This document shows, piece after piece, positions 1 to 5,169 of a DNA stretch of 64,000 bases (position 1 is the stretch's first letter; each line of letters opens with the position of its first letter). Below the pieces are notes generated by a model. It had not been told where the DNA came from, searched no databases, and saw only the letters and a list, made by a program, of their open reading frames with translations. This DNA is from Bradyrhizobium sp. CCBAU 51765. GTDB lineage: Bacteria; Pseudomonadota; Alphaproteobacteria; Rhizobiales; Xanthobacteraceae. The stretch spans positions 310,001-374,000 of the forward strand of contig NZ_CP030038.1 of assembly GCF_015291725.1 (NCBI RefSeq), in the 5' to 3' direction. Position numbers and translations under genes: made by a program.

Positions 1-1479
<1,479 letters not shown>

Positions 1480-1650
1480 GAGTGAGCTTCTTTGCGGTCG
1501 AACAATGGGTTAAGCGCGATCTCGCCGGTCGGACCGGGACCTCTTCTCGAAACAACGCTGGAAGACTGGAAACGGGGCGCTTTCCGCCCAAAAAGGAAGC
1601 CCGGCCATATCAGCCAGGCGCCCTGCGCGTTGCGGCGCAATATATGCAAA

Positions 1651-1683
1651 AACGGCCAAAAAACAATGTGTTCTTTGGCCGTT
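1651..1683 (-). terminator. Probable intrinsic terminator of the radical SAM operon
   Basis: A 10-bp perfect inverted repeat (AACGGCCAAA / TTTGGCCGTT) with a 13-nt loop is followed on the minus strand by a short T-run. It lies between the operon ending at 1736 and typA, so it probably ends the operon transcript. Confidence 0.55.
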
Positions 1684-1735
1684 GGTTGACTGAATTTTGT
1701 CCGGGAATCTCCGGGGCTTAGCGGAAAGACGGGGC

Positions 1736-2008
1736 CTAACCGCGCCGTCCCTTGATGGCCGCCCAGATCAGGGCGACCCCGCCGATGCCCACGAGCAGGC
1801 CCAGGAACACCAAAGGCGCGATGTCGGAGGCGATCCTGCCGTCCTCGAACACCGACACTCCGCCGAACAGCAGCGCACAGACACCCGGCAGCAGCAGGAT
1901 GATCCCGAAGATCGCCATGAGCGCGGTCAGGCAGCCGCTGCGTTTTTGCGTCGGTGGAGGCGGCGGCGGAACGGGAGGTGCGGGCGGCGGTGTGTCGCTG
2001 ATGCTCAT
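1736..2008 (-). CDS. Small proline-rich two-TM membrane protein
   Basis: A 90-residue protein of no family I recognise. The N-terminal 20 residues are almost entirely Pro with Thr/Ser. Two hydrophobic helices follow, at about residues 28-50 and 63-82, and a short basic tail (KGRRG). Its ATG overlaps the stop of the upstream radical SAM gene as ATGA (4 nt), which implies translational coupling and supports both the start and the reality of the gene. The longer frame upstream of this ATG lies inside the radical SAM gene. A membrane adaptor or anchor for the operon is a guess from position only. Confidence 0.75.
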   Translation of the reverse strand: MSISDTPPPAPPVPPPPPPTQKRSGCLTALMAIFGIILLLPGVCALLFGGVSVFEDGRIASDIAPLVFLGLLVGIGGVALIWAAIKGRRG

Positions 2009-3435
2009 GCCTGCAAGGCTCCTTCGGTCGCCTGAGCGGCCAACCCGGCGCGGATGCCGTCGATCTGTCCGTTCCGATAGAACAAGTTGTAGGTGTCGAA
2101 CGGAATGATCGCGCCCTGCTCCGTCACGAAATGGATACAGCTGCGCTTGACGTTGCCGACGCAGAAATTGAAGCGATCGAGGAATTGCACGATGGTGACG
2201 CGGAAGACGTTTTCGTAAGTGAGGCCCTGTGGCACCTCGAAGCTCGGCAGGCAGCACAAGAGTTCGCAGACGCGCTCGGAAGTGTTGAGCGGGCCCGACG
2301 ACAGCGAGAACAGATCGACGAATTTCTCCCGCAGGATCGGATATTTTTCCGGGCTGATGGTGTTGGGCATCACCGCAACCAGCTGCTCCTGCGGGATCAG
2401 TGAGGTCAGCGGCAGCACCTTCTCGCCGTTGCGCAGGCCGTAGCCGATCGAGATGCTTTCAGGGTTGCAGGGCAGCGGGATCATGTCCGTGTCGCCGAAC
2501 ACGCCGGTCTCGATCACGCGCTTGCGAATCTCCGACAGCATGATGCGGTCGGTGGTCTTGTCGAAATTCTCGTTGCGCCCGGCATCCTGCACCGGCTGCA
2601 GCGTGACGCCGCGCACGCACTTCCAGGTCAGGGCATGGCGAACGATGTCGCCGATCTCGGCGTCGTTGACGCCGCGCTTGATAGTCGCGACCAGCGTGGT
2701 CGACACGCCATAATGCTCGAGATTTTCCAGCGCCTGCTGGCGGATTTTTCGCAAATCCGCGCCGCGCAGATCGATCAGCGCATCGCGCTGAAGCGAATCG
2801 AACTGGAGATAGACCTCCAGCCCGCGCTTGTTCTCGGCGAGCCGCGCCACAAAATCCTTCTCGCGGGCGATGCGCAGGCCGTTGGTGTTGATCATGACGT
2901 GGCGGATCGGGCGGGCGCGCACCGCGTCCAGGATCTCGAAGAAATCCGGATGCAATGTCGGCTCGCCACCGGATATCTGCACCAGATCGGGCTCGCCTTC
3001 GCTCGCCACCAGCGCGTCGAGCATCCTCTCGACCGTCGCGAGCGGGGTGAATTTCGTTCGTGCCGGCGAGGATTCGGCAAAGCAGACCGGGCAGGTGAGG
3101 CTGCAGTGCTCGGTGATCTCGATCAGCGCCAGGCAGGAATGCTGCTCGTGGTCGGGACAGAGGCCGCAATCATAGGGACAGCCGAATTCCGTGCGGTGCT
3201 GGAATTGCAGCGGCCGGTCGCCCGGCTTGATGAAATCCTTGCACAGGCGCCAATAGGCCGCATCCGTCGACACCAGCGTCGACTGCACGCCATGCTCCCC
3301 GCAGCGCTTTTCGTACCAGACCTCGTTGTCCTGGATCTGGATCTTGGTCGGCACCAGCTTCAGGCAGGTCTCGCAGAGGGATTGGGTCTGGCCCCAAAAG
3401 ATGTAGGGACGCGACTTACGCAGCGGCGCGTTCAT
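2005..3435 (-). CDS. Radical SAM protein related to the tetraether lipid synthase (Tes/MJ0619) family
   Basis: A 476-residue radical SAM enzyme. The radical SAM cluster motif CSLTCPVC (C111, C115, C118) and the SAM-binding GGEP (156-159) are visible. Before them come a zinc-ribbon-like C21xxC24...C45xxH48 and a second Cx3CxxC at C86/C90/C93 (GCPYDCGLC). The C-terminal part has more cysteines (CELLCC, NFC, RSC) and the phrase IIPFDTYNLFYR. This arrangement is what I know from the archaeal MJ0619/Tes family, which joins lipid alkyl chains, and from its uncharacterised bacterial homologues. The start MNAPLRK is chosen because it overlaps the Lgt-like gene by only 20 nt; a longer frame runs to 3480. 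The substrate here is unknown. Sitting between two membrane-protein genes is consistent with a lipid-linked substrate. Confidence 0.85.
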   Translation of the reverse strand: MNAPLRKSRPYIFWGQTQSLCETCLKLVPTKIQIQDNEVWYEKRCGEHGVQSTLVSTDAAYWRLCKDFIKPGDRPLQFQHRTEFGCPYDCGLCPDHEQHSCLALIEITEHCSLTCPVCFAESSPARTKFTPLATVERMLDALVASEGEPDLVQISGGEPTLHPDFFEILDAVRARPIRHVMINTNGLRIAREKDFVARLAENKRGLEVYLQFDSLQRDALIDLRGADLRKIRQQALENLEHYGVSTTLVATIKRGVNDAEIGDIVRHALTWKCVRGVTLQPVQDAGRNENFDKTTDRIMLSEIRKRVIETGVFGDTDMIPLPCNPESISIGYGLRNGEKVLPLTSLIPQEQLVAVMPNTISPEKYPILREKFVDLFSLSSGPLNTSERVCELLCCLPSFEVPQGLTYENVFRVTIVQFLDRFNFCVGNVKRSCIHFVTEQGAIIPFDTYNLFYRNGQIDGIRAGLAAQATEGALQA

Positions 3436-4132
3436 GCAGGGATCTCGCTTTGGCCGCCGTCGCCAGCATGAAGGCGGCATAGAGCAGGATGGACAGCGAC
3501 AGCAGGTGAAACAGCGTGAACGGACCGATCAGCGTGCCGTAGGGCTTGAGAAATTCCCATAGGAAGCGCTGCGCTCCATAATAGGCGAGAACCAGGTAGA
3601 AACCATTGGTGATCGTGAAGGCGTTTCGGTTCAAGACCGCCAGCACATAGACAATCGCGAATACGGCCATGGCTGCGCTCTCGTAGAGCTGGACGGGATG
3701 GCGAAGGACGCCGTCGCCGAAATCATGGCCGAAAGGCAGCGCCGTCGGCGTGCCGTAGGTGAAGTCGTCGAGGCCCGCGAAGTAGCATCCGAGGCGGCCG
3801 ATCGCGATGCCGAGCGCCAGCGGCAGCGCAAACCGGGCGCCGGTTCGCACCGCGATTCCTGCGGACCATTTGTAGAGCTCGATCGCCACGATGCCGCCGG
3901 CCAGCGCGCCCTCCACCGAGCGCGCGATGCCGTTCTGCCCGGACAGCCACAGATTGGCCGACCCGAACAGATAGGCGCCAAGGCCGGCGCCGAACACCAG
4001 CGCGGCGATATAGGGCAGCTCGAAGGATTGCGCCGGAAACTGCAGGCCCTGTCGCGCCAGCCAGTAGACGGCCGCCGCGGCCGCCAGCCACGCCGCGATA
4101 TCGAACAGAGTGTGAAGGAAAGCCCCGCCCAT
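3416..4132 (-). CDS. Lgt-like (prolipoprotein diacylglyceryl transferase family) membrane protein
   Basis: A polytopic inner-membrane protein of 238 residues from this ATG, with about seven hydrophobic segments. Lgt hallmarks are RHPVQLYES, the GRLGCYFAG segment in place of the Lgt signature GRxGNFxNGE, and RFLWEFLKP near the C-terminus. Lgt transfers diacylglycerol from phosphatidylglycerol to lipoprotein cysteines. Here the signature Asn/Asn/Glu positions differ, so this is probably not the housekeeping Lgt. It overlaps the radical SAM gene by 20 nt, making one transcript. A GTG start at 4162 is possible; neither start has a clear ribosome binding site. Confidence 0.8.
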   Translation of the reverse strand: MGGAFLHTLFDIAAWLAAAAAVYWLARQGLQFPAQSFELPYIAALVFGAGLGAYLFGSANLWLSGQNGIARSVEGALAGGIVAIELYKWSAGIAVRTGARFALPLALGIAIGRLGCYFAGLDDFTYGTPTALPFGHDFGDGVLRHPVQLYESAAMAVFAIVYVLAVLNRNAFTITNGFYLVLAYYGAQRFLWEFLKPYGTLIGPFTLFHLLSLSILLYAAFMLATAAKARSLHERAAA

Positions 4133-4185
4133 GTGGGGGCAGTATAGCACGGTTACGTTCACACAGCGCGATGCGCATGACTGCG

Positions 4186-4388
4186 CCCTCTCCCCTTGTG
4201 GGAGAGGGCATCACCGCTCGCAGACACAGGCTCATCGGGGTGAGGGGTATCTCTCCGCATACTCCTTTGCGAATGTGCGCGCGGATAGAGACCCCTCACC
4301 GGCGCCATAGCCGAAGCTCCGCTTCGGCGTTTCCCAGGAACGGCGGCCGGAGGCCGCCTATGCCACCTTCTCCCACAAGGGGAGAAGG
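4186..4388. repeat. Palindromic intergenic repeat (CTCTCCC...GGGAGAAGG type)
   Basis: The block opens with a hairpin around CTCTCCCCTTGTGGGAGAG and closes with the near-inverse CCTTCTCCCACAAGGGGAGA. It fills the gap between the Lgt-like gene and the Crp-type gene. A related block lies at 57796-57945. Confidence 0.75.
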
Positions 4389-4404
4389 AAGAAAGCAAGT
4401 GGAG

Positions 4405-5169
4405 CTACCCCGCCTCCCGCTCCTCGGTCGGGTAGACCCCGCGCAGCACCTCCTCGAAATGCATCTTCACGGCATCGTTGCACAGGCAGGCGCGAAGCTT
4501 CAGGCCATCGCGATTGCGAACCAGGATCGAGCCGCGCCGTGTGTCGAGAATCCGTTCCGCCTTGAACGACTGGAGCACGCGGCTGGCATAGCTGCGCCCG
4601 ACCCCGAGCAGCGTCGCGAGTTGTTCGTGAGTCAGCGGCACACTGGTCTCGTCGCCGGTCCGCTCCATCGCCGCCAGGATCCATTTGGCGGTGCGCTGCT
4701 CTATCGAGTGGATCGCGTTGCAGGCGGTCGACTGGAAGATCTGGGCCAGCAAGCAATCGGCATAGCGGGCGAAGATGTTGCGCAGCGACGCCGAGCGCAG
4801 CTTGGCCGCTTCCAGCTTGGCAACGTGAATGCGCGCAAACGGCCCGCCGAACTTCACGCAGATCCGGGTATAGGCCGGCAGGAATCCCTCGCTGACGATG
4901 CCGCCCACCGCGCCTTCGCGGCCGACCAGAATGGTTTCGACGTCGCGGCCGTCCTCATTGGGGACGAGGAAGGTCGCGAGCGACGGCCCGCAGGGGAAGT
5001 GGACGACCTGCACGTCATCGCCAGGATTGTAGAGCAATTGGCCGGCTGCGGAGTCTTCGAAAGTCACGTGCGGTGCAAGGAGGGCGTAGTCGGCCTGGCT
5101 CAAACGCCGCAGCAGATTGTTGGCCGGCCGGCTTTCGACCTCGGTGACCTTGCCGATACGCGCATCCAT
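4405..5169 (-). CDS. Crp/Fnr family transcriptional regulator
   Basis: A 254-residue DNA-binding regulator with an N-terminal cyclic-nucleotide-binding-like beta barrel (about residues 20-140), a long dimerisation helix, and a C-terminal winged HTH containing LTHEQLATLLGVGRSYASRVL (about residues 180-200). No FNR-type cluster of four N-terminal cysteines is present, so oxygen sensing by an Fe-S cluster is unlikely. Many Bradyrhizobium genomes carry several such regulators of unknown effector. The gene is divergent from the receiver-domain gene at 5349 across a 179-bp gap. Confidence 0.9.
   Translation of the reverse strand: MDARIGKVTEVESRPANNLLRRLSQADYALLAPHVTFEDSAAGQLLYNPGDDVQVVHFPCGPSLATFLVPNEDGRDVETILVGREGAVGGIVSEGFLPAYTRICVKFGGPFARIHVAKLEAAKLRSASLRNIFARYADCLLAQIFQSTACNAIHSIEQRTAKWILAAMERTGDETSVPLTHEQLATLLGVGRSYASRVLQSFKAERILDTRRGSILVRNRDGLKLRACLCNDAVKMHFEEVLRGVYPTEEREAG

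Follow-up and report, generated by a model that had tools for sequence, protein, structure and literature searches.

A recurrent gene cassette of an Lgt-like protein, a Tes-like radical SAM protein and small cysteine-bearing membrane proteins in Bradyrhizobium and other bacteria

We have analysed a window of 64,000 nt, meaning the whole stretch of DNA presented, from contig NZ_CP030038.1 of Bradyrhizobium sp. CCBAU 51765, a single-contig genome of 8.4 Mb. Three overlapping genes on its reverse strand encode an Lgt-like membrane protein (P0001), a radical S-adenosylmethionine (SAM) protein related to the tetraether synthase Tes and to TrsS (P0002) and a small membrane protein (P0003). An earlier note, made from the sequence alone, had described the overlaps and suggested that the three products modify a membrane lipid or lipoprotein. 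The overlaps, of 20 and 4 nt, are confirmed as first noted. Comparison across genomes indicates that an Lgt-like gene, a radical SAM gene and genes for small membrane proteins constitute a widespread travelling cassette. The features of the window copy are as follows.

3416..4132 (-), Lgt-like integral membrane protein P0001, 238 aa, seven long helices
3785..3796 (-), P0001 R113 and C116, at the positions of E. coli R143 and N146
3416..3435 (-), overlap of the Lgt-like and radical SAM genes, 20 nt
2005..3435 (-), Tes/TrsS-like radical SAM protein P0002, 476 aa, template modelling (TM) score 0.80 to 7tom
3292..3375 (-), P0002 rubredoxin-like metal site C21-x2-C24-x20-C45-x2-H48, with MJ0619 spacing (passages of PMC9433317)
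3148..3180 (-), P0002 N-terminal auxiliary cluster site C86-x3-C90-x2-C93 with H96
3082..3105 (-), P0002 radical SAM cluster motif C111-x3-C115-x2-C118
2005..2008 (-), overlap of the radical SAM and small protein genes, 4 nt, ATGA
1736..2008 (-), small two-helix membrane protein P0003 with conserved Cys, 90 aa
1877..1879 (-), codon of P0003 Cys44, the conserved transmembrane Cys (LLPGVC)
1480..4404 (-), cassette-bearing stretch from typA to the Crp-like gene, 2,925 nt

Linkage and distribution of the cassette genes

Loci were collected by scanning genome contigs with the radical SAM protein as the sole query, and the best 80 of at least 567 stretches were retained, a set consisting mostly of close relatives in which Bradyrhizobium is over-represented. 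A same-strand Lgt-like gene is present in 77 of these 80 loci. At the remaining three (L059, L081 and L090) the match lies no more than 107, 6 and 333 nt from the beginning of the contig, respectively, so that any upstream gene would be out of view. The Lgt-like gene lies upstream of the radical SAM gene in 76 of the 77 loci, no more than 300 nt away in 72 of the 76, L077 being the sole case in which it is found downstream instead. The three-gene order, which the earlier note had proposed to look for in other genomes, is conserved. A small-protein open reading frame (ORF) is found at the radical SAM stop in 82 of 97 loci. The lineages represented among the best 80 are Alpha-, Beta- and Gammaproteobacteria, Bacillota (Paenibacillus, Brevibacillus, Aeribacillus and others) and Melainabacteria, together with one cyanobacterial and two planctomycete metagenome-assembled genomes (MAGs); some of the organism labels may be binning errors. 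Doubtful labels were noted at L042, L076, L077 and L096, and include a 'Tepidamorphus' MAG whose contig is 91% identical to Bradyrhizobium, planctomycete MAGs for whose contigs the value is 62%, and 'Bacillus subtilis' DE0224.

Linkage was also observed in genome sets drawn by taxonomy. Of 385 genomes drawn from the class, six contain a radical SAM match, the source genome and one other Bradyrhizobium included, and all six have the Lgt-like gene. Among 398 Pseudomonadota genomes, 12 contain a match to the Tes profile, each with an Lgt-like gene at the locus, three of these loci being already known (the window itself, G021 and G057). In 60 relatives of the source strain, the radical SAM gene is present in 14, the source genome included, and strong Lgt-like matches (E <= 5.4e-69) occur in precisely these 14 genomes, with three weak matches (E 4e-4 to 3e-8) falling in others. 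Pairwise identities of the Lgt-like and radical SAM proteins are closely correlated across the 77 loci (r = 0.96; none of 999 permutations as high), a value which common descent alone would also tend to produce. In two of the six genomes from the class draw, which are small alphaproteobacterial ones (L025 and L026, family f115; 1.2-1.5 Mb), the radical SAM relatives are distant, at 28-30% identity, and a divergent, weakly similar (27-32%) Lgt-like gene lies downstream with two small membrane ORFs, forming a reduced cassette.

In Bradyrhizobium, the radical SAM match is present in 63 of 146 genomes, two of the 63 having only a distant type of 37-38% identity. The window copy is flanked downstream by a gene at 1479..1, which we take by eye from its sequence to be typA, and upstream by a gene with a Crp-type DNA-binding domain at 5169..4405. 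A promoter and terminator scan of the locus was uninformative. In six cassette-free Bradyrhizobium genomes, chosen as complete ones among the 60 relatives, typA and the Crp-like gene adjoin in every case with a gap of ∼280-370 nt as against 2,925 nt, and beyond the site the response regulator, PhoD-like and NMT1-like genes follow in unchanged order. No match to P0001, P0002 or P0003 was detected in these six typA/Crp-like stretches. The empty sites therefore indicate that the three genes are present or absent as one block. In one further Bradyrhizobium genome the radical SAM gene is broken into two overlapping open frames (G1254:C52:41426-42834). Three Bradyrhizobium genomes (L184, L185 and L186; G1300, G1270 and G1222) were also noted to have a second type of Tes-like radical SAM protein, of 37-38% identity, whose gene has no Lgt-like partner and adjoins that of a small membrane protein of another kind, with paired cysteines and presumably VKOR-like as judged by eye.

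A wider gene cluster was considered and rejected. In the 43 of the 80 loci examined, other common neighbour families occur in at most eight loci and at scattered positions, among them an ABC transporter ATPase, and some are bound to a lineage, such as the typA-type GTPase and the Rhodocyclales genes. Five Rhodocyclales loci (L084, L087, L095, L097 and L100) have genes in common 4-7 kb upstream, which we take by eye to be LplT/Aas-like (lysophospholipid transporter/acyltransferase). Assignment to a defence system was likewise rejected, PADLOC giving only viperin-type radical SAM matches for P0002 (42 and 39 bits) and no match for P0001 or P0003.

The association with an Lgt-like gene appears specific to the window's radical SAM family. 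Within 398 Bacillota genomes, the TrsS profile matched in 34; of the 40 matches, 30 were retained and inspected. At the 25 loci of TrsS type (L149-L173), no Lgt-like gene lies within 1.5 kb; the scores of L172 and L173 fall narrowly under the curated TrsS cut-off, and L172 is without most of one flank. An Lgt-like gene is present at L174, L177 and L178, which score better against the window's family, L178 being the Paenibacillus genome at the centre of the draw and already known, and none was found within 1.5 kb at L175 and L176. At L174, ORFs lie between the radical SAM gene and the distant Lgt-like gene (2742-4340), presumably encoding isoprenylcysteine-methyltransferase-type and DUF4395-type membrane proteins, as judged by eye.

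Properties of the three proteins

P0002 scores 74 bits against Pfam Radical_SAM (cut-off 29.5) and 58.9 bits against Zn_ribbon_HMPTM (cut-off 27). A profile search, which the earlier note had proposed as a check, did not place it in an unrelated radical SAM family, TrsS and Tes being the best matches. TrsS (NF045646) is the best NCBIfam match at 296.9 bits, below the cut-off of 490, followed by Tes (NF045702) at 258.4 bits, below the cut-off of 450, a cut-off which none of the 398 Pseudomonadota genomes exceeds. In an unrooted tree of 40 proteins, with several long branches, one clade (100/100) unites 22 members of the window's family. L174, L177, L025 and L026, each of which has an Lgt-like gene, are placed with this family by a supported branch (95/84), across which lie Tes, TrsS, L175, L176 and L184-L186; L177 joins L025/L026 with weak support (86/64). 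Tes groups with TrsS, apart from the window's family, which by these sequences appears as a sister clade to Tes/TrsS. Tes or TrsS proper is ruled out as the identity of P0002 by the curated cut-offs and the tree.

The closest solved relative of P0002 is MJ0619 (7TOL), with E 1e-60 by sequence and 1.8e-90 with a profile. The model of P0002 (mean predicted local distance difference test, pLDDT, 85; residues 355-357 and 359-403 under 50) corresponds to the lipid-binding MJ0619 structure 7TOM with TM scores of 0.80 and 0.76, and has the overall Tes fold. After 7tom and 7tol, the next structural matches include the peptide maturases SkfB and SuiB, over the core only. The earlier assignment of P0002 to the Tes family thus stands as regards homology and fold and falls as regards identity with Tes itself. 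The cysteine layout of tetraether synthase seen at that time is borne out at the rubredoxin-like, N-auxiliary and SAM-cluster sites, ligands C21, C24, C45 and H48 being kept in 97 of 98 sequences (one gap), C86, C90, C93 and H96 in 98 of 98, and C111, C115 and C118 in 98 of 98. P0002 therefore keeps the ligands of three of the four metal sites of Tes with MJ0619 spacing (passages of PMC9433317). As read by hand from the alignments, the 5'-deoxyadenosine-binding residues Phe106, Arg210 and Gln268 of Tes correspond to F119, R224 and Q280, Ser271 corresponds to Gln283, and Tyr459 to Phe436. Other cysteines are conserved in the family, C323 in 98 of 98 sequences, C394 and C395 in 95 of 98 each, and C433 in 97 of 98 (one gap). 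The C-terminal cluster of P0002 is probably held differently from that of Tes, and P0002 should, from its conserved residues, bind SAM and several metal centres.

P0001 matches Pfam LGT with 61.7 bits (gathering cut-off 24.9), and its AlphaFold model, comprising seven long helices (pLDDT 94), aligns by VIA-align with 211 residues of E. coli Lgt (5azb) at Z 12.8, as against 5.5 for the match that follows. Plain Foldseek with the same model gave no Lgt among the matches listed and no match of any kind at E <= 0.001. Assignment of this partner to the Lgt family, as the earlier note had it, is upheld by the domain score and the fold. Its best score against the NCBIfam Lgt equivalogs is 38.9 bits, far below the cut-off of 334, and another LGT gene (E <= 1e-67) was found in all 20 cassette genomes tested. 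P0001 is thus not the housekeeping enzyme but a divergent second Lgt beside it. Residues were compared in an alignment of 78 Lgt-like and eight canonical rows and in another of 20 canonical and 12 Lgt-like rows; the signature Asn was part of the pattern used to choose the canonical rows, in which it is therefore conserved by construction. R113 and R189, corresponding to E. coli R143 and R239, are invariant (78 of 78), as are E85, K88, T97, D123, T125 and D140 in the same 78 sequences.

Small-protein genes were sought at 98 loci, the window copy included, 97 of which have downstream sequence. At 82 of the 97, the start of an ORF with two or more predicted helices falls between -60 and +120 nt from the radical SAM stop, and in 81 of these 82 the ORF has a Cys in a hydrophobic stretch, the exception, L025, having the Cys in the next ORF. 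Thirteen of the other 15 loci have, as read by eye, a small-protein ORF at another place in the cluster, whether ahead of the Lgt-like gene, in a gap between genes or farther downstream, leaving L048 and the contig-edge locus L090. Two to four tandem copies are present at 30 of the 82 loci. Neither P0003 nor three others tested could be assigned to a known family, all being below every curated Pfam and NCBIfam cut-off, and no convincing paralogue of P0003 was found elsewhere in its own genome (next best E 0.07).

Position, rather than mere presence, characterises this Cys. Of 96 dereplicated small proteins, 92 have a Cys that follows a hydrophobic 12-mer. Counting the best-placed Cys, Gly or Ala occupies -1 or -2 of such a Cys in 89 of the 96; in 71 of those 89 the Cys lies 16-22 residues after the last Lys or Arg, six proteins having no basic residue before it. 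Four of the seven lacking Gly/Ala at -1 or -2 read PGVLC or PGLLC. Two architectures were recognised, one with two helices and the Cys ending helix 1 (LLPGLC, SGLC, AGGC), the other longer, with the Cys in the last helix (FLLNAACFG), found in Bacilli and some others. By the positive-inside rule, the Cys would in both be located at the outer end of an in-to-out helix, which is where Lgt meets its substrates. The earlier description of a two-helix, proline-rich protein needs one correction, only 35 of the 96 proteins having at least five Pro in the first 35 residues. The Pro-rich N-terminus is a lineage feature, and the common feature is the Cys near the outer end of a helix.

Candidate function and alternative explanations

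The reading which we favour, tentatively and without calling it probable, is that the Lgt-like enzyme lipidates the small-protein Cys and that alkyl chains are the target of the radical SAM enzyme, which would couple or alter them. The cassette would then be self-contained, a lipid being put on a small membrane protein and subsequently altered. In a first step, the divergent Lgt would move a diacylglyceryl or similar lipid onto the Cys, consistent with its keeping both arginines by which E. coli Lgt positions the phosphatidylglycerol phosphate. The acceptor site would be placed like a lipoprotein Cys, within a motif that is rarely a canonical lipobox and with more membrane following it. In a second step, the radical SAM enzyme would abstract hydrogen from alkyl chains of the attached lipid or of its donor, and coupling of chain ends would give a macrocyclic or membrane-spanning lipid anchor. 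The tandem copies of the small proteins fit with a role as substrates. We infer from the conserved Cys a concrete candidate for the lipid or lipoprotein substrate that the earlier note had suggested, and its interpretation overall is partly supported. A more specific form, in which the system represents a new type of lipidation, a divergent Lgt acting on an in-helix Cys and the radical SAM enzyme joining chain ends with one another or with a neighbouring lipid, seems to us doubtful though worth holding in view. If true, common soil bacteria would possess a covalently closed or membrane-spanning lipid anchor on a protein and, to our knowledge, the first sp3-sp3 alkyl coupling on a lipid-modified protein.

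Several observations weigh against lipidation and coupling, both of which are read from sequences and models. In P0001 the position of E. coli Asn146 is occupied by Cys (C116; 78 of 78), that of Tyr26 by His (75 of 78; three gaps), and no His occurs at the position of His103 in the aligned rows shown; canonical Lgt chemistry is therefore not assured. Y26, H103 and N146 are essential in E. coli Lgt, and distant Lgt homologues, MSMEG_5408 among them, are reported in a 2026 study to carry N146C and Y26H (passages of PMC13251419). That study nowhere uses the word 'radical' and mentions no radical SAM partner. In P0002, Cys438/Met439 of Tes are replaced by Ile415/Val416, as read by hand from the alignments, and model residues 355-403, which include C394/C395, are unreliable; the Tes variants Y459F and M439A remain active (passages of PMC9433317). 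As regards the small proteins, 61 of the 96 have more than one Cys, 34 exactly one and one none. The lipobox consensus, [LVI][ASTVI][GAS]C, occurs anywhere in only four of the 96 and is absent from P0003. A hydrophobic-stretch Cys is also present in 13 of 24 control two-helix ORFs from the same loci, a small and weak control; Cys presence therefore means little, and the argument lies in its fixed place. Finally, most loci belong to close relatives, and they are the best 80 of at least 567 stretches.

Chance or an inherited neighbourhood with no functional link is judged refuted. The Bradyrhizobium loci have the typA neighbourhood in common and alone prove little, but the pair recurs in different neighbourhoods in Alpha-, Beta- and Gammaproteobacteria, Bacillota and Cyanobacteria/Melainabacteria, and the cassette is present or absent as one block. 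Chance adjacency is ruled out by linkage in 77 of 80 loci, its absence from 25 TrsS loci, co-occurrence in 14 of 14 genomes and the empty sites. Alternatively, the product could be a free chain-coupled lipid, a membrane-spanning or macrocyclic phospholipid, with the Lgt-like protein shifting diacylglyceryl between lipids and the small protein serving as scaffold or regulator. Lipids are the substrates of both Tes and the bacterial enzyme Mss (passages of PMC9433317 and PMC13274423) and the fold of P0002 matches Tes, but this explanation, which we consider unlikely, fails to account for the Lgt fold of the partner, Lgt acting on protein cysteines, or for the kept Cys and tandem copies of the small proteins.

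The small protein might instead be the direct substrate of the radical SAM enzyme, through C-S or C-C bond formation as in peptide maturation, the Lgt-like protein adding lipid before or afterwards. Small, variable, tandem proteins beside a maturase do resemble precursor peptides, and SkfB and SuiB are among the next matches of the P0002 model, but these cover the core only while the full-length match is a lipid enzyme, and the conserved Cys lies within a membrane helix, away from the cytosol where radical SAM enzymes work. This we hold to be improbable. We attach still less weight to a structural or redox role in which the small-protein Cys, carrying no lipid, forms a pair with Cys116 of P0001 or serves as a metal ligand. 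Cys116 is invariant (78 of 78), and the related Bradyrhizobium radical SAM type adjoins the other kind of small membrane protein, with paired cysteines, described above; against this, a helix-end Cys after a basic residue mimics a lipoprotein signal, and N146C is also present in Lgt homologues for which such a context is not reported (passages of PMC13251419).

Relation to known systems

By title, abstract or passages, the system was not found described in the open-access PMC papers that the searches listed. The pair receives a passing mention in PMC12010503, where single-cell genomes of Pseudarthrobacter contain a region of ∼3,500 bp with radical SAM and prolipoprotein diacylglyceryl transferase genes. 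One cell of the four is without the entire region, much as some genomes are without the cassette, and the region is left uninterpreted with no small protein named (PMC12010503). Likened by annotation alone, it would fit a cassette that is gained and lost as a block in another phylum. In PMC7641849, prolipoprotein diacylglyceryl transferase and radical SAM are named only in unrelated places. Zeng et al. listed 456 bacterial Tes homologues, Proteobacteria included, and proposed synthesis of branched glycerol dialkyl glycerol tetraethers (brGDGTs) (passages of PMC8941075). The window's radical SAM family may be among these homologues; the words lipoprotein, gene cluster and Bradyrhizobium are absent from the main text of that article. 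Bacterial Tes homologues have thus been counted in many genomes as proposed brGDGT makers, and their activity had not been confirmed (passages of PMC8941075 and PMC11868695).

The present results tie one broad bacterial clade of Tes-like proteins to an Lgt-like enzyme and small Cys-bearing membrane proteins, a link which suggests a substrate other than free tetraether lipids and cautions against taking such Tes-like genes as lipid biomarkers. Some 'second Lgt' paralogues gain a partner and a candidate substrate, and the cassette is small enough to test in ordinary soil bacteria of the laboratory.

Of the known systems, Tes itself (GDGT-MAS; MJ0619; 7TOL and 7TOM; NF045702) is homologous to P0002 over nearly the whole length. 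P0002 differs in being bacterial, in being tied to an Lgt-like gene, in scoring below the Tes cut-off within a sister clade, and in lacking Cys438/Met439, the P0002 family having conserved C323, C394, C395 and C433 instead. TrsS (NF045646), a (seleno)protein family, is the best NCBIfam match, but P0002 scores below its cut-off, the 25 TrsS-type loci are without an Lgt-like gene within 1.5 kb, and TrsS groups apart in the tree. Mss, the bacterial membrane-spanning lipid synthase, is said to have Tes architecture and to couple alkyl chains. Together with Ger it is discussed as a bacterial enzyme for membrane-spanning lipids, with no Lgt partner in the passages concerned, and is likened here to P0002 by description (PMC13274423 and PMC11868695). 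P0001 has the Pfam LGT domain, the Lgt fold and the R143 and R239 positions in common with Lgt, from which it is set apart by Y26H, N146C, the lack of His103, scores far under the equivalog cut-offs and its occurrence as a second gene. The MSMEG_5408-type Lgt homologues, likened by description, have the same Y26H and N146C (passages of PMC13251419).

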